A DNA stretch of 5,058 bases from the NCBI GenBank assembly GCA_021789355.1, contig JAJYJR010000477.1:1-5058 (forward strand), written 5' to 3'. The position numbers and the translations under genes were made by a program. Positions 347-5,058 of this stretch are shown in pieces; position 1 is the stretch's first letter, and every line of letters begins with the position of its first letter. The DNA comes from Chloroflexota bacterium. GTDB taxonomy: Bacteria > Chloroflexota > Limnocylindria > Limnocylindrales > CSP1-4. Under the pieces are notes generated by a model. It did no database searches and had not been told where the DNA came from. It was given only the letters and a program-made list of their open reading frames with translations.

Positions 347-360
347 CTAACGCACGTTTG
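347..360. promoter_or_regulatory. ArsR operator, copy 1 (CTAACGCACGTTTG)
   Basis: This 14-mer contains the palindrome AACG-CA-CGTT (349-358) and matches the neighbouring copy at 362-375 at 11 of 14 positions. The two share the form CTAACGNNCGTTWG. It lies immediately upstream of arsR1, where autorepressing ArsR/SmtB proteins normally bind. The role as operator is inferred from palindrome symmetry, tandem duplication and position. Confidence 0.7.
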
Positions 361-361
361 A

Positions 362-375
362 CTAACGTCCGTTAG
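362..375. promoter_or_regulatory. ArsR operator, copy 2 (CTAACGTCCGTTAG)
   Basis: CTAACG (362-367) and CGTTAG (370-375) are exact inverted repeats around a 2-bp centre. The copy starts 15 bp after copy 1, so two dimers would lie next to each other about one and a half helical turns apart. It overlaps the putative -10 element TAGAAT (373-378), so bound repressor would directly block RNA polymerase. Confidence 0.75.
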
Positions 376-378
376 AAT
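373..378 (+). promoter_or_regulatory. Putative -10 element (TAGAAT) for a leaderless arsR1 transcript
   Basis: TAGAAT matches the TATAAT consensus at 5 of 6 positions and lies 7 bp upstream of the ATG at 386. This is the spacing at which transcription would start on or next to the start codon. No Shine-Dalgarno sequence precedes either possible arsR1 start, which fits a leaderless message. A TTGACT sequence at 358-363 is only 9 bp away, too close to be the matching -35, and no good -35 is seen at normal spacing. Confidence 0.5.
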
Positions 379-385
379 GGCGCCC

Positions 386-793
386 ATGCTGCAAACGCCG
401 ATCGAACCTGAAGCGACGAGCCTTCCCCCGGAGACGCTCGACGCCCTGCGGGCCATTGCCGAACCGTCGCGCGCCCGGGTCATCGCGCTGCTCGGCCATG
501 GCGAGCACTGCGTGTGCGACGTCGGGGCGGCGCTCGGGCTGAGCACGGCCCTCGTCTCGCACCACCTGCGCGTCCTGCGCGCGAGCGGCCTGCTCCGTGA
601 GCGCCATGCCGGCCGCTGGGTCTACTACTCCCTGGATCTCGACCGGGTGGCGCAACTGCGCGGCGCGCTCGAGCAGCTGCTGACCCCCTCCGATGCCGCG
701 GCGACGACCTGCCTCTGCACCGACTGCGGCGCCCCCGCGCGATCCGGGACCTCCGGCGTGCCCGGCCTGCGGCGGCTGGAAGTGGCGCCGTGA
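386..793 (+). CDS. arsR: ArsR/SmtB-family As(III)-responsive repressor (ArsR1)
   Basis: This 135-aa protein is a winged-helix repressor that should bind the two palindromes just upstream and release them when As(III) or Sb(III) binds. The metalloid motif is HCVCDV with Cys42 and Cys44, matching the CVCD site of E. coli ArsR at the start of helix alpha3. It is followed by the recognition helix (STALVSHHLRVLRASGLL) and a wing (GRWVYYSLD). I chose ATG 386 because TAGAAT lies 7 bp upstream, fitting a leaderless transcript; the in-frame ATG at 377 abuts operator 2 and would add only three residues. The C-terminus is unusual: after the last helix it carries Cys109-x-Cys111-x2-Cys114 in a short tail, which could be an extra metal or thiol site. 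The stop overlaps the next gene by 4 bp (GTGA), so it is the first gene of the operon. Confidence 0.93.
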   Translation: MLQTPIEPEATSLPPETLDALRAIAEPSRARVIALLGHGEHCVCDVGAALGLSTALVSHHLRVLRASGLLRERHAGRWVYYSLDLDRVAQLRGALEQLLTPSDAAATTCLCTDCGAPARSGTSGVPGLRRLEVAP

Positions 794-1194
794 CCTGCTC
801 GGTGCTCGTCGTCGGGCTGCCGCCCGCGGCCGGTTGCGCACCGGGCAAGACCTGGCGGGCCGCGGCGACCCTCGTGCAGCAGCGCCTCGAACAGCGCTTC
901 GGCGATCGGGTCTCGTTCGAGTATGCCGAGCTGTTCAGCCCGGACATGACCCGCCATCCGGACGTCGAGGCCGATATCGCGGCCGGTCTCGTGTCGCTGC
1001 CGATCGTCGCGATCGACGGCGTCCCCCGGTTCTCGGGCGGCAAGCTCAACGTCAGCGCGATCGAACACGCGGCAGCGGAGGCCCTCGGGTCGGCTTCGGC
1101 CCCACGCTCCGCTTCGGCCCCCCACTCCACCTCGGCCGCCCGTAGCGCACCCCCGTCCATCTTCACGTCGGCCACGGAAGGACGCGTCTCATGA
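790..1194 (+). CDS. Small thioredoxin-fold-like protein of unknown function in the ars operon
   Basis: This 134-aa cytoplasmic protein starts at GTG 790, which overlaps the arsR1 stop and is preceded by GGAAG at 778-782 with a 7-bp spacer. Residues 1-96 read as a small alpha/beta thioredoxin-like fold: a strand (SVLVVGL), a loop with Cys16, a helix (TLVQQRLEQRFGD), a strand (VSFEYAELF), then SLPIVAIDGVPRFSGG, where the Pro after Leu resembles the cis-proline of thioredoxin folds. The pattern recalls YuzD-like proteins, but no CXXC pair is present. The only cysteines are Cys3 and Cys16, so a normal disulfide reductase role is doubtful. The last 34 residues are a Ser/Ala/Pro-rich tail containing three tandem hexapeptides. 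It overlaps arsD by 4 bp (ATGA), so the two are probably translated together. A role in thiol or arsenic handling is inferred from context only. Confidence 0.8.
   Translation: MTCSVLVVGLPPAAGCAPGKTWRAAATLVQQRLEQRFGDRVSFEYAELFSPDMTRHPDVEADIAAGLVSLPIVAIDGVPRFSGGKLNVSAIEHAAAEALGSASAPRSASAPHSTSAARSAPPSIFTSATEGRVS
1090..1143 (+). repeat. Three tandem 18-bp units coding for hexapeptides SASAPR / SASAPH / STSAAR
   Basis: Units at 1090-1107, 1108-1125 and 1126-1143 share the pattern TC-[GC]-[GA]-C-[TC]-TCGGCC-N6. The first two are the most alike. The 18-bp period keeps the reading frame and gives six-residue repeats in the tail of the thioredoxin-fold-like protein. The region beyond the fold is therefore a repeat-expanded, probably disordered tail. 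Confidence 0.65.
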
Positions 1195-1523
1195 CGGACC
1201 CTGTACAGGCTTCAGCGGCTCCCGACGTCGAGATCTTCGATCCCCCAATGTGCTGCCCGACCGGCCTGTGCGGCCCGGTTCTGGACACCACCCTCGTGGA
1301 CCTCTCGGAGGCGCTGCTCGCGCTCCAGTCGGACGGGCGCTCTGTGGCGCGCCACATGATGACGGTCGAGCCCCATGCGTTCATGCGCAACCGGGCCGTG
1401 TACGAGCTCATCCGCGACCGCCAGCTCGAGGTCCTGCCCATCACCCTGGTGCGGGGCCAGGTGGTCAAGACCGACGCATACCCGAGCCTCGACGAGTTGC
1501 GCGCCGCGCTGCTGGACAGCTGA
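1191..1523 (+). CDS. arsD: ArsD arsenic metallochaperone
   Basis: This 110-aa protein is a cytoplasmic carrier that binds As(III) and passes it to ArsA, raising ArsA's affinity and ATPase activity. The sequence EIFDPPMCCPTGLCGPV places Cys21, Cys22 and Cys27 exactly like Cys12, Cys13 and Cys18 of the E. coli plasmid R773 ArsD, the three residues needed for chaperone activity. The following fold (helix after LVDLSEALLAL, then LEVLPITLVRGQVVKTDAYPSLDEL) also matches the family. The ATG at 1191 overlaps the preceding stop (ATGA) and has GGAAGGA at 1176-1182. Compared with R773 ArsD, there is an N-terminal extension of about nine residues, and the protein ends without the two C-terminal Cys-Cys pairs. 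Those pairs are absent in many ArsDs and are not needed for chaperone activity. An 82-bp gap separates it from arsA. Confidence 0.95.
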   Translation: MTDPVQASAAPDVEIFDPPMCCPTGLCGPVLDTTLVDLSEALLALQSDGRSVARHMMTVEPHAFMRNRAVYELIRDRQLEVLPITLVRGQVVKTDAYPSLDELRAALLDS

Positions 1524-1605: not shown

Positions 1606-3471
1606 ATGACCCAGTTCCTCTTCTTCTCTGGCAAGGGCGGCGTCGGCAAGACGACCATGGCCTGCACCACGGCCGTGGCCGAGGCCGACGCGGGGCGGCG
1701 CACGCTGATCGTCACCACCGACCCCGCCTCGAACCTCGCCGACGTGTTCGAGCAGCCGATTGGCCATCGGGTCAGCGCGATCCACGCCGTTCCGCGCCTG
1801 TGGGCCATGGAGATCGACCCCGACCGGGCCACGGCGGAGTACACCGATCGGACCCTGGCGCCCATCCGGGCCATCTTTCCGCCGGAGATCGTCAGGGTCA
1901 TGGAAGAGCAGCTGGCGTCGCCCTGCACCGCGGAGGTCGCGGCGTTCGATCGGTTCGCCGATTTCCTCGACCCGATCGCGCTGCTCGATCCTGGGGTGGA
2001 CGGCCCGTTCGACCTGGTGATCTTCGACACCGCGCCCACGGGTCATACCGTGCGCCTGCTCGAACTGCCCGAGGCCTGGACGAAGAGCATCTCGGAGGCG
2101 GAGGCCGGCAGCGGGCAGACATGCATCGGCCCGGCCGCGGCGATCGGCGAGGCCAAGGCGAAGTACGAGCGTGCGCTGCACGCGCTGCGCGACCCCGGCC
2201 AGACGCGCTTCGTCTTCGTGCTCCAGCCCGAGGCGACCGCGATCCGCGAGACTGCCCGCTCCAGCGCGGAGCTGGGACGGCTCGGGATCGCGACGACCGA
2301 ACTGATCGTCAACGGGATCCTGCCGGCCGAGGAAGGGGAGAACCCGTTCTTCGCGGCGCGGATCGCCATGCAGCGCCGGCACCTCGAGGACATCGCGAGC
2401 CGGCTCCCGATGCCGGCCAGGCACGTGCCACTCCTCGACGGCGAGGTCCGCGGGATCGAGCGGCTGCGCGCCGTGGCCCCCCTGCTGCACGACGAACGTG
2501 TCCAGCGCCCGAGCTTCGGGCATGAGCCGTCCCAGCCGTCCGACACGGTGACCAGCCTGCCCGACCGGGATGCCGCCATGGCACGCCTGCTGCCGGACGG
2601 CCATCCGCGCACCATCTTCTTCGCCGGCAAGGGTGGCGTCGGCAAGACCGCGGTGTCGTGCACGACGGCCGTGTGGCTGGCGGCACAGGGCCTCCGCACG
2701 CTGCTGGTGACCACCGATCCCGCCGCCCACATCGGCGACGTCCTCGGGGTCACCGTCGACGCCGAGCCGGAACCGGTCGCCGGGGTGCCCGGCCTCTGGG
2801 CCGCGCGGGTCGACCCCAAGGCCGCTGCCTCCGCATACACGGAGCGGATCATCGACGACGCCATCGCGCGGGGGAGGGGTGCGGACGCGATCGCCGCGAT
2901 GCGTGAGGAGCTCGACTCCCCCTGCACCGAGGAGATCGCGGCCTTCGATCGGTTCATCGACCTGGCCAGTCGTGACACCTACGACGTGACGGTGATCGAC
3001 ACCGCCCCGACCGGGCACACCCTGCGCCTGCTCGAGCTGCCCATCGACTGGAGCCGCCAGCTCGACATCAAGGTGTTCGCCTCGGTCGACACCGCGGCGG
3101 CCGACGACGTCGCGAAGGCGCGGTTCGGGCGGGTGATCGAGATGATGCGCGACCCGGCGCAGAGCACGTTCGCGTTCGTGATGTACCCCGAGGCGACCCC
3201 GATCGTCGAGGCGGCCCGGGCGATCGAGGAGCTGGCCACCCTGGGCATCCCGCTGGGGCTGGTCGTGGCCAACATGGTGCTGCCGGCGGACGCGTGCACG
3301 ACCCCCTATTCGCAGGCTCGTCGGCGCATGCAGCGGAGCTACCTGGCCGAGATCGCGGGCCGGTTCGAGGCCCCGATCCTCGAGGTCCCGCTGATCGACG
3401 CCGAAGTGGCGGGTCTGGAGCGGCTCACCGACATGGCAGGGCAGCTGTTTACCGCGACCGTGGCGGCCTGA
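1606..3471 (+). CDS. arsA: ArsA arsenite/antimonite-stimulated ATPase, two-domain form
   Basis: This 621-aa soluble ATPase energises As(III)/Sb(III) efflux when docked on a membrane pump, and it receives metalloid from ArsD. It has two homologous halves. The N-half has P-loop GKGGVGKTT (residues 9-17), TTDPASNL and the ArsA signature DTAPTGHT (141-148). The C-half has P-loop GKGGVGKT (341-348), TTDPAAH and DTAPTGHT (465-472). The three metalloid-site cysteines of E. coli ArsA (Cys113, Cys172, Cys422) correspond to Cys107 (SPCTAEVAAFD), Cys173 (GQTCIGP) and Cys440 (SPCTEEIAAFD), so the site looks complete. I chose ATG 1606 because homology starts at MTQFLFFSGKGG and GAAAGGA (1588-1594) lies 11 bp upstream; the open frame continues to 1375 but that part overlaps arsD and is not ArsA-like. 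The family's usual length is about 580 aa, with the excess probably in the linker around 305-332. Confidence 0.97.
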   Translation: MTQFLFFSGKGGVGKTTMACTTAVAEADAGRRTLIVTTDPASNLADVFEQPIGHRVSAIHAVPRLWAMEIDPDRATAEYTDRTLAPIRAIFPPEIVRVMEEQLASPCTAEVAAFDRFADFLDPIALLDPGVDGPFDLVIFDTAPTGHTVRLLELPEAWTKSISEAEAGSGQTCIGPAAAIGEAKAKYERALHALRDPGQTRFVFVLQPEATAIRETARSSAELGRLGIATTELIVNGILPAEEGENPFFAARIAMQRRHLEDIASRLPMPARHVPLLDGEVRGIERLRAVAPLLHDERVQRPSFGHEPSQPSDTVTSLPDRDAAMARLLPDGHPRTIFFAGKGGVGKTAVSCTTAVWLAAQGLRTLLVTTDPAAHIGDVLGVTVDAEPEPVAGVPGLWAARVDPKAAASAYTERIIDDAIARGRGADAIAAMREELDSPCTEEIAAFDRFIDLASRDTYDVTVIDTAPTGHTLRLLELPIDWSRQLDIKVFASVDTAAADDVAKARFGRVIEMMRDPAQSTFAFVMYPEATPIVEAARAIEELATLGIPLGLVVANMVLPADACTTPYSQARRRMQRSYLAEIAGRFEAPILEVPLIDAEVAGLERLTDMAGQLFTATVAA

Positions 3472-3505
3472 CGCGGCCACCTGAAGGCAGTTGAGGAGGA
3501 CATAC

Positions 3506-3952
3506 ATGAGCGCGACGCAGGGCGTCACCGCCGTGTCCGGCGGTCTCCCGGACCACGTCACCATCGAACCTGCGGGCACGGGCCCCCTCGAGCGCACGGC
3601 CCTCACCGCTGCGGATGCACTGGGGGTGGCACTCCACGAGAGCGCTGCCTACGCGGCGCTGGTTCGGGCCGATCGAGAACTGGAGGCGGACGAGGACGCC
3701 CAGGCGGCCATTGCCGCCTTCGAGCGCCGGCAGGACGAGCTGCGCGTCGAGATCACGTTCCGCACGCTCACCGCCGAACACCAGGCCGATCTCGAGCGCC
3801 TGCAGACGGCGATGCTCGAGACGCCGGCGGTGGCACGGTACGTGGCCGCCCAGGCGTCGCTCGCGGACCTGTGCCGACAGGCGGCGGCGCTCGTCACCGC
3901 CGAGATCGGCATCGACTTTGCCGCCAACTGCGGCAGCAAGTGCTGTGGCTGA
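3506..3952 (+). CDS. YlbF/YmcA-like helical protein with a C-terminal Cys-rich tail
   Basis: This 148-aa, mainly helical cytoplasmic protein follows arsA after 34 bp, with a strong Shine-Dalgarno (GAGGAGGA, 3493-3500) 5 bp before ATG 3506. After a poorly conserved N-terminus of about 30 residues it shows the YlbF/YmcA layout: a helix AADALGVALHESAAYAALVRADRELEAD (quoted here in part only as its ends, residues 35-62), then DAQAAIAAFERRQDEL, a linker, and ETPAVARYVAAQASL with a final amphipathic helix. It ends GIDFAANCGSKCCG, with Cys142, Cys146 and Cys147 plus Cys123 upstream. In Bacillus, RicF (YlbF) and RicA (YmcA) form a complex with RicT that holds [4Fe-4S] clusters and affects RNase Y and development. 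Cys tails in this family are therefore plausible metal ligands. A role in As(III) or Fe-S sensing here is inference from its position. Confidence 0.75.
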   Translation: MSATQGVTAVSGGLPDHVTIEPAGTGPLERTALTAADALGVALHESAAYAALVRADRELEADEDAQAAIAAFERRQDELRVEITFRTLTAEHQADLERLQTAMLETPAVARYVAAQASLADLCRQAAALVTAEIGIDFAANCGSKCCG

Positions 3953-3965
3953 AGGGAGTCGCGCC

Positions 3966-4334
3966 ATGCTCGATCCGACCCTGGAGGCAGCGGCCACCGA
4001 GCTCGGCCGCACGCTCGCCCGTGTCCCCGCGCTTGCGCAGTTCCTGGCCGCCGACGCCGCCCTGGCCCACGACGCCACTGCGCAGATGATCCTTGCCGGC
4101 CTGCGGGAGGAGCAGGAGCTCCTGGGCCGTCTCCAGGCCTCCGGCCTCGCGCCCAGCCAGGAACAGATCAACGCTCTGCGCGTCCGGCAGGCGGCCGTTC
4201 GGGCCGATCCGACCATCATGGAGTACCTCCGCGCGTCGAACGAGGCGCGCTCGTTTCTTCCGGGAGTCGCGCTGCGGATCGGCGTGACGCTCGGGCTCGA
4301 CTTCGGGCAGCTCGTGTCGTCAGGCAGCTGCTGA
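3966..4334 (+). CDS. Second YlbF/YmcA-like helical protein
   Basis: This 122-aa protein starts 13 bp after the previous stop, with AGGGAG (3953-3958) 7 bp before ATG 3966, so the two are surely cotranscribed. It has the same general build as its neighbour: an N-terminal helix (TELGRTLARVPALAQFLAAD), a second helical stretch (AQMILAGLREEQELLGRLQ), a loop LAPSQEQ, then a helix pair with DPTIMEYLRASNEA. It ends LGLDFGQLVSSGSC, which lines up with the IGIDF...CCG end of the first protein, so the pair looks like diverged paralogues. Only one Cys remains (Cys122, the last residue). The pairing recalls RicA plus RicF acting as a heteromer in Bacillus. Function here is unknown; family membership is judged from pattern, not from a search. 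Confidence 0.7.
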   Translation: MLDPTLEAAATELGRTLARVPALAQFLAADAALAHDATAQMILAGLREEQELLGRLQASGLAPSQEQINALRVRQAAVRADPTIMEYLRASNEARSFLPGVALRIGVTLGLDFGQLVSSGSC

Positions 4335-4346
4335 CGGGGTCGCTCG

Positions 4347-4381
4347 GCGCGTCCTGTGCCAATGCGCGGCAAGGGACGCGC
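4347..4381 (+). terminator. Strong hairpin, probable terminator of the arsR1-arsA-YlbF operon
   Basis: Starting 12 bp after the last stop codon, GCGCGTCCT (4347-4355) pairs with GGGACGCGC (4373-4381), including one U-G wobble. After a single G/A mismatch, TGCC (4357-4360) pairs with GGCA (4368-4371) around a 7-nt loop. This gives 13 base pairs in 35 nt. There is no T-run after it, as is common for GC-rich bacteria. It could instead protect the mRNA 3' end after Rho-dependent termination. Confidence 0.55.
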
Positions 4382-4563: not shown

Positions 4564-4902
4564 ATGCGCGTTGAGCTTCCCGTCCTGCCGGACCTGCGCA
4601 TGGACGAACCTGCCCCCGATGTGGGCGCGCCGCTGGCGGCCGCAGGCCTGCTCGCCGACCGCACCCGCGCCGGGATCCTCGCGATCCTCCGCGATGGGCC
4701 GCACTGCGTGTGCGAGATGGCGGCCGCGCTCGGTGAACGACAGAACAACGTGAGCAACCATCTGGCGCGGCTGCGCGAGGCCGGCCTGGTGCGGCCGACG
4801 CGACTGAGCGGGGACTCTCGTCGCGTCTACTACGAGCGCGACGAGGCGGCTTGTGCATCCGCCCTCGCCACGCTGCGCAGCCTCCTCGAGATCACTGCGT
4901 GA
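4564..4902 (+). CDS. arsR: Second ArsR/SmtB-family repressor (ArsR2)
   Basis: This 112-aa winged-helix repressor starts at ATG 4564 with GAGGAG (4551-4556) 7 bp upstream. The sensing motif is PHCVCEMAAALGE with Cys48 and Cys50, the same helix-alpha3 CVC position as ArsR1 but with Glu in place of Asp after it. The recognition helix region reads RQNNVSNHLARLREAGLV and the wing SRRVYYERDE. The recognition helix differs clearly from that of ArsR1 (STALVSHHLRVLR), in line with the different upstream repeats. It has no C-terminal Cys tail. Its stop overlaps the start of the permease gene by 4 bp (GTGA), so it most likely controls that gene and itself. Inducer is probably As(III), Sb(III) or a trivalent organoarsenical; the sequence does not settle which. 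Confidence 0.92.
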   Translation: MRVELPVLPDLRMDEPAPDVGAPLAAAGLLADRTRAGILAILRDGPHCVCEMAAALGERQNNVSNHLARLREAGLVRPTRLSGDSRRVYYERDEAACASALATLRSLLEITA

Positions 4903-5058
4903 CCGCGCTGTCCCTCACCCGTGGCCGCCGGCCGTCGCTCCCGCTCGTCGTCGCCACGGCCGTCGTCGCCTGGCTCGTCGCCTGGTTCGCCGAGAGCCCG
5001 CTCGCGGACTGGCTGAGCTACGACCTGCTGCGCCTGGAGCGCGGCTCGCACCTGGGCG
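4899..5058 (+). CDS. Permease of the ArsP/DUF318 (COG0701) type, N-terminal part only
   Basis: GTG 4899 overlaps the arsR2 stop (GTGA), there is no clear Shine-Dalgarno, and the frame stays open to the right edge (53 codons). The protein begins with a basic stretch (RGRRP, residues 8-12), then a hydrophobic membrane segment at about residues 14-31 (LPLVVATAVVAWLVAWFA), then WLSYDLLRLERGSHLG. That last stretch resembles the loop after the first membrane helix in COG0701 permeases, which typically have a W-L-[ST]-[YF]-D-x-L-x-L-x2-G-[ST]-x-L-G type sequence. Members include ArsP, an efflux permease for trivalent organoarsenicals, and others of unknown substrate. Coupling to an ArsR gene fits a metalloid exporter. 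The assignment rests on a short fragment. Confidence 0.7.
   Translation, partial: MTALSLTRGRRPSLPLVVATAVVAWLVAWFAESPLADWLSYDLLRLERGSHLG

Follow-up and report, generated by a model that had tools for sequence, protein, structure and literature searches.

Paired YlbF-family proteins with cysteine tails encoded behind arsA, a probable arsenic-handling partner of the ArsA ATPase

Two small genes of the YlbF family, here called ylbF1 and ylbF2, directly follow arsA in the window, that is, the whole stretch of 5,058 nucleotides of Chloroflexota DNA that we analysed. The same pair recurs beside arsA in further bacteria, a counterpart stands behind arsA in haloarchaea, and the encoded proteins carry cysteines in their C-terminal tails. 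The pair is probably an undescribed arsenic-handling partner of ArsA rather than a set of RNA-processing factors. Our preferred reading, to which we give a probability of roughly 0.45, is a Ric-fold heteromer whose tail thiols would bind As(III) or Sb(III), as the tail cysteines suggest, and which would hand the metalloid to ArsA or gate this enzyme.

Arsenic export driven by ArsA is commonly attributed to ArsA, ArsD, and a membrane pump. In Halobacterium NRC-1, the arsADRC cluster confers resistance to arsenite and antimonite, arsB plays no role, and a novel transporter has been proposed, according to passages of a review (PMC3600143). The ars cluster of this organism has a gene pair directly behind arsA which, together with its bacterial counterpart, is a candidate for a missing part of ArsA export. 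If this is true, the pair would represent a third soluble component of the ArsA pump beside ArsD, it might account in part for the function of haloarchaeal ArsA without ArsB, and the YlbF/RicA/RicF fold would be in use outside RNA processing.

The arsenic gene cluster of the window

All genes of the cluster, from arsR to the start of an ArsP-type permease, lie on the forward strand. Directly 5' of arsR, a motif scan revealed two tandem copies of the inverted repeat CTAACG-NN-CGTTAG (347..375), the first with one mismatch (347-360) and the second perfect (362-375). Two matches to this motif occur in the window, and none of 200 shuffles had two or more. Judging from the sequence, these repeats are probably the operator of ArsR. 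Locus L001 displayed a single copy with two mismatches 5' of its arsR, which was equalled by 20 of 100 shuffles.

The first gene, arsR (377..793), encodes an ArsR/SmtB metalloregulator (PF01022, 43.0 bits; NF033788, 84.5 bits, cut-off 55). It is followed by a gene for a small protein without family match in Pfam or NCBIfam (790..1194), relatives of which occupy the same position in L001, L095, and L096; another relative is found 3' of arsA in L076, with a weak DUF1462 match below the cut-off. Next comes arsD (1191..1523), of the As(III) metallochaperone family (PF06953, 96.8 bits; NF033727, 102.5, cut-off 90), whose product has the N-terminal CC...C motif and lacks a C-terminal cysteine tail. 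The gene arsA (1606..3471) encodes a two-domain arsenical pump-driving ATPase (PF02374, 461.7 bits) with 78% identity to the ArsA of a Chloroflexi MAG. The best NCBIfam model for this protein was ArsA_halo (NF041417), at 626.2 bits and below the cut-off of 800. Its Cys107, Cys173, and Cys440, matched by eye, presumably correspond to the metalloid-site cysteines 113, 172, and 422 of the E. coli enzyme.

The gene ylbF1 (3506..3952, forward strand, 148 aa) begins 34 bp behind the stop codon of arsA, which ends at 3471, and ylbF2 (3966..4334, forward strand, 122 aa) follows after 13 bp. Each gene is preceded by a Shine-Dalgarno-like motif on the same strand, read directly from the sequence: GAGGAGG (3493..3499) for ylbF1 and AAGGGAG (3952..3958) for ylbF2. 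Coordinates, gaps, and motifs thus confirm the earlier note on this DNA, which had described two small proteins tightly spaced behind arsA with ribosome sites. YlbF1 ends in ...AANCGSKCCG and the codons of its Cys146-Cys147, a vicinal pair retained by relatives from both bacteria and archaea, lie at 3941..3946; YlbF2 ends in ...SSGSC, with the codon of the final Cys122 at 4329..4331.

The earlier note also had the unit end at a hairpin behind these genes. A G+C-rich stem-loop can indeed form on the forward strand at 4347..4381, but it is weaker than claimed and has no T run. Folded as 51 nt, it had a z-score of -1.40, with 17 of 200 shuffles as good, and as 66 nt a z-score of -2.26, with 5 of 200 as good; a 156-nt stretch was no better than shuffles (z 0.13). 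An intrinsic terminator at this position was rejected, as the T run is missing and the terminator scan made no call there, its sole match lying inside ylbF2. Further downstream are a second arsR-family gene (4564..4902; PF01022, 51.5 bits) and the first part of a gene for an ArsP-type permease, which runs off the end of the window (4899..5058; phmmer, 54 bits to the L001 permease, itself PF03773 ArsP_1). Since both lie on the same strand, the unit need not end at the hairpin.

Family and predicted fold of the two proteins

Membership in the YlbF/YmcA family, as originally suggested from the sequence, was upheld for both proteins: PF06133 matched YlbF1 at 51.0 bits and YlbF2 at 42.2 bits, above the gathering cut-off of 23.9. 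This was the sole Pfam match of either protein up to an E-value of 1, and the ArsD family (PF06953) was absent from both. Protein searches, with the query excluded, returned 11 relatives for each. Ten of those of YlbF1 were full-length at 66-85% identity and one had 54% identity over 74% of the length, and ten of those of YlbF2 were full-length at 73-84% identity, with an 82-aa fragment as the eleventh. Because of these relatives, we consider ylbF1 and ylbF2 real genes, and their full-length relatives together with the PF06133 matches rule out chance open reading frames. One relative of YlbF1 was named by organism, a Candidatus Limnocylindrales MAG, and is annotated merely as 'YlbF family regulator'.

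RicA, RicF, and other YlbF-family structures were the first matches both by sequence profile and by predicted single-chain models. Comparison of these models with solved structures supports a predicted RicA/RicF-like helical fold for both proteins. Profile searches were needed for this, since a single-sequence search with protein P0001 against solved structures returned one chance match. No close relative of P0001 was found in the plasmid collection at an E-value of 1e-3.

Recurrence of the pair beside arsA

The arsA-linked pair was found in eight further bacterial loci whose context was read. The genes ylbF1 and ylbF2 stand directly 3' of arsA in the window and in L001, L002, L003, L026, L027, L095, and L096, and one gene away from it in L088, with an arsR in between. 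L003 has an interrupted arsA and gave no arsD. A scan of genome contigs yielded three loci (two Chloroflexi MAGs and one Propionibacteriaceae MAG), all with the pair beside arsA. The earlier note had staked its proposal on matches to PF06133 and on the arrangement recurring beside arsA in other genomes, and both were found, the latter in these eight loci and in haloarchaea.

Among 400 Chloroflexota genomes, the HcsL model described below matched 6 and PF06133 matched 10, nine of them above the cut-off; the context was read for eight of these ten, G279 and G293 being excluded. The pair lies 3' of arsA in G001, G005, and G027. Genome G238 has a window-type YlbF2 next to an ArsP-type permease where its contig ends, and in G107, G031, G219, and G251 no arsA adjoins the YlbF gene or genes. 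Among 396 genomes of Actinomycetota, eight matched the HcsL model: the pair is 3' of arsA in G002, the order is arsA-arsR-pair in G553 (where a contig end cuts arsA), and in the other six the stretches examined matched neither arsA nor arsD. YlbF1 was detected in 4 of the 126 genomes of the order of G001, and the pair or a part of it in 5 of the 107 genomes of the family of G238, four times beside arsA and once at a contig end. Exactly two YlbF-family matches were present in each of the eight genomes tested. No ylbF pair occurs in L081. Such sporadic presence across the surveyed genomes makes the pair an accessory module, and several arsA operons of the same clade do without it.

In a tree of 31 ArsA rows, the pair occurs in two places. 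One is a clade in which Chloroflexota and haloarchaeal ArsA group together; the other is L002, whose ArsA falls with conventional ArsA and is set apart by a long branch with full support. Supported branches require at least four changes of presence or absence. The tree excludes two Chloroflexota ArsA split in two frames (L079 and L083); no YlbF match was found in either locus, L079 ending 262 bp behind arsA. The presence of the pair in two deep clades, with at least four changes, implies that one inherited operon alone does not explain its shared occurrence. Within the window's clade, the idea that the pair is obligatory is contradicted by six YlbF-less rows and by L078, where a decayed ylbF1 (5338-5715) lies directly 3' of arsA and still matches the L027 protein at 63% identity across 62 residues.

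Some candidates did not qualify as further examples. The small gene 3' of arsA in an Alicyclobacillus plasmid (L013) had no YlbF profile match. The single YlbF genes of four actinobacterial genomes (L084-L087) encode tails without vicinal CC, three of them cysteine-rich and that of L087 with one cysteine, and no arsA or arsD match was found in the stretches examined, which for L087 is a 4.7-kb contig. The YlbF match was weak in L089, and L090 had none.

A counterpart in haloarchaea

NCBIfam holds two 'halo-CC-star' models, HcsL (NF041416) and HcsS (NF041415), which describe the haloarchaeal counterpart of the pair behind arsA. The 24 plasmid records matching HcsL, which are the best 24 arsA records among the best 60 of 2,152, were all haloarchaeal, and in all 24 hcsL lies 42-141 bases past the point where the arsA alignment stops, in the same orientation. 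The order arsD-arsA-hcsL-hcsS was displayed by all three plasmids read in detail, while the genes beyond it varied (arsR-arsM, a substrate-binding protein, or a metallo-hydrolase).

HcsL resembles YlbF1 of the window in its position behind arsD-arsA, its YlbF domain, and its C-terminal CC; the window protein has the CC followed by one glycine, thus ending in CCG where HcsL ends in CC. Each of the six bacterial YlbF1 proteins tested had HcsL as its best NCBIfam model, and none of them reached the cut-off of 140: YlbF1 of the window scored 68.3 bits and the five others 58.7-75.7, against 150.4 for a haloarchaeal HcsL. The second proteins differ more. YlbF2 of the window is a full-length YlbF protein ending in one cysteine, whereas HcsS has 59-62 aa in the three plasmids read and ends in CC. 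YlbF2 scored 26.6 bits against the HcsL model, and no match to the HcsS model (cut-off 55) was listed for it up to an E-value of 1. In an hhalign comparison built on three HcsS sequences (probability 95.4), the last 34 residues of HcsS matched the C-terminal end of the YlbF1 profile, which comprises its final helix and the tail.

The arrangement was therefore partly known already, as position, YlbF domain, and CC tail are part of NCBIfam annotation for haloarchaea, and the bacterial form with two full-length YlbF proteins falls below the NCBIfam cut-offs. The earlier note knew of no standard role for such proteins in arsenic resistance. This holds for function, as no paper on the function of HcsL/HcsS or the bacterial pair was found among the matches listed in the openly licensed literature, but not for annotation, since NCBIfam already places HcsL and HcsS next to arsA.

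Conserved cysteines in the tails

Vicinal thiols are a usual ligand of As(III). A C-terminal vicinal CC was present in 124 of 124 YlbF1/HcsL proteins (98 ending in CC, 25 in CCG, and one in CCGG), a sample made of 12 proteins from the YlbF1 search and 120 listed of 126 profile matches, with 8 in common, which is biased because the search profile included the tail, and in which at least six proteins are of the L028 type, not beside arsA. Across 40 diverse rows, M1, D62, A115, C146, and C147 were invariant, the L029 row (ending in CGCGG) fitting the last two columns only through a gap between them. The tail of YlbF1 in the window contains C142 besides the vicinal C146-C147, and of these the vicinal pair alone is constant among relatives; some YlbF1 proteins have additional C123 and C142.

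The terminal cysteine of YlbF2 follows the link to arsA. It was present in all nine arsA-linked loci (the window, L001, L002, L003, L026, L027, L088, L095, and L096) and in none of four unlinked ones (L028, L029, L030, and L097), with L098 excluded since its YlbF2, which has the cysteine, lies at a contig end; a post hoc Fisher test, uncorrected for kinship, gave p 0.0014. Regarding YlbF1 of unlinked loci, L028 has a CCG tail and L029 ends in CGCGG; a single YlbF was found in L097.

ArsD shares the operon with YlbF1, and several ArsD tails also end in CC. It belongs to a different family (PF06953), though, and the window has its own, tail-less ArsD besides both YlbF proteins. Passages of two papers describe C-terminal vicinal cysteine pairs in ArsD of the E. 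coli type (among PMC3600143, PMC2963123, PMC2440759, and PMC4562236). A cysteine-rich ArsD C-terminus was found in 13 of 13 proteins of the conventional ArsA clade, where rows L035 and L036 gave no ArsD, ten of them ending in CC, compared with 0 of 16 in the clade of the window. The latter has the pair in nine rows, lacks it in six, and has the decayed ylbF1 in one. The idea that the YlbF tail strictly replaces that of ArsD was rejected, as the six YlbF-less rows also lack the ArsD tail.

YlbF genes in other metal neighbourhoods

In L028 (9002-11701), a YlbF1 with CCG tail and a YlbF2 lie behind a SufBD-core gene and a SufC-like ABC ATPase gene, which would link a YlbF pair of Chloroflexota to Fe-S assembly and, as far as the gene content goes, stands against a reading in terms of arsenic alone. 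L029 (8704-13276) and L097 (4478-7125) display arsR, a thioredoxin-like gene, and an ArsP permease, then the YlbF gene or genes and a gene of the Nitro_FeMo-Co family, without arsA; Pfam supports the permease, the Nitro_FeMo-Co gene, and an additional chromate transporter of L029, and L097 was assigned by eye from its likeness. The YlbF genes of these three loci resemble those of the window in family, in pairing (L028 and L029), and in their metal or Fe-S neighbourhoods. They differ in that no arsA adjoins and in that YlbF2 has no terminal cysteine.

Proposed function and alternative explanations

Based on these findings, we postulate that YlbF1 and YlbF2 are two subunits of a Ric-fold helical heteromer, unlike protomers as in RicA:RicF, that would work with ArsA and ArsD. 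Flexible tails would present the vicinal Cys146-Cys147 of YlbF1 and Cys122, the last residue of YlbF2, which together might coordinate As(III) or Sb(III) through three thiols. The heteromer may take the metalloid from ArsD or the cytosol and load ArsA, or else dock on ArsA and gate its activation, and As(III) would then leave through the permease of the operon, which is of the ArsP type in the window. In haloarchaea, HcsL and the shortened HcsS might do the equivalent job. The earlier note had suggested a heteromer that handles As(III); the evidence favours this reading, in which metalloid binding and contact with ArsA are what we infer. More tentatively, and with the odds somewhat against it, the pair could represent a novel type of arsenic metallochaperone, or of adaptor that activates ArsA. 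It would use the Ric/YlbF helical fold, the tails of its two unlike subunits would jointly supply a three-thiol As(III) site, and it would be conserved in haloarchaea, Chloroflexota, and Actinomycetota.

RicA (YmcA) and RicF (YlbF) of Bacillus subtilis resemble the pair in Pfam family, in being among its top structure matches by profile and fold, in having two unlike protomers, and in carrying cysteines in both C-terminal tails. A Ric-like role, with the pair guiding RNase Y under arsenic stress, would accord with this likeness, with the occurrence of RNase Y in 10 of 10 genomes tested, and with that of PSP1/RicT in two genomes with the arsA-linked pair (G005 and G027). However, RicT (PSP1, PF04468) matched none of the 126 genomes in the order of the nearest relatives, which makes a role with RicT and RNase Y unlikely; it is absent from G238 and G002 too, and of eight genomes with YlbF genes four have it (G005, G027, G107, and G219) and four lack it (G001, G002, G003, and G031). 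Unlike the Ric genes, those of the window belong to an ars operon, the pair is sporadic and sits in ars clusters in the family where 5 of 107 genomes have it or a part of it, and the archaeal counterparts keep the link to arsA. The separated ligands C134 and C146 of RicF are also replaced by a vicinal CC. The mRNA-processing role raised in the earlier note is thus highly improbable, and an order without RicT match together with the sporadic pair rules out housekeeping Ric genes. A more substantial alternative, possible though rather unlikely, is that the tail cysteines bind an Fe-S cluster, as RicA and RicF do with RicT, and that the pair senses arsenic damage or protects or repairs clusters, with a third protein (ArsA, ArsD, or another) adding a ligand. 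In passages of PMC6751060, cluster 2 of the Ric complex is ligated by C134 and C146 of RicF, the tail cysteine of RicA, and C167 of RicT, a layout resembling two ligands on one YlbF protein and one on the other. The pair behind the suf-like genes of L028, the Nitro_FeMo-Co gene beside the pair of L029 (and similarly, by eye, in L097), and the extra C123 and C142 of some YlbF1 proteins point the same way. Against it, the same passages report that little iron, if any, is taken up by RicAF on its own and that the authors knew of no documented case of vicinal cysteines ligating one Fe-S cluster, while RicT is missing in the nearest relatives and the vicinal CC is the only constant feature of these tails.

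The pair might also act without contacting ArsA, either by storing As(III) or by adjusting the ArsR regulators in the manner of a thiol buffer or co-sensor. ArsR genes flank it on both sides in the window and one stands between arsA and the pair in L088, and a vicinal CC tail could simply sequester the metalloid; but a buffer need not track arsA, and hcsL stays behind arsA in the three haloarchaeal plasmids whose following genes vary, so we regard this as unlikely. That the genes are passengers hitch-hiking with ars operons, with no role in arsenic metabolism, would fit their sporadic presence and the decay of ylbF1 in L078. The link recurs in haloarchaea, Chloroflexota, and Actinomycetota, it spans two deep clades of ArsA, and gene order and tails are constant, which makes this very unlikely.

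Three minor observations concern related proteins. Passages of PMC6016940 mention YlbF-family proteins in arsenic-resistant Exiguobacterium and tie them to biofilm, not arsenic. The ArsD of L002 (7683-8066) has a tail ending in CCGGGGSC, in an operon that also carries the YlbF pair. Finally, in L030 (8918-9709) two YlbF domains are naturally fused within a single frame of 263 aa, with no tail cysteines.
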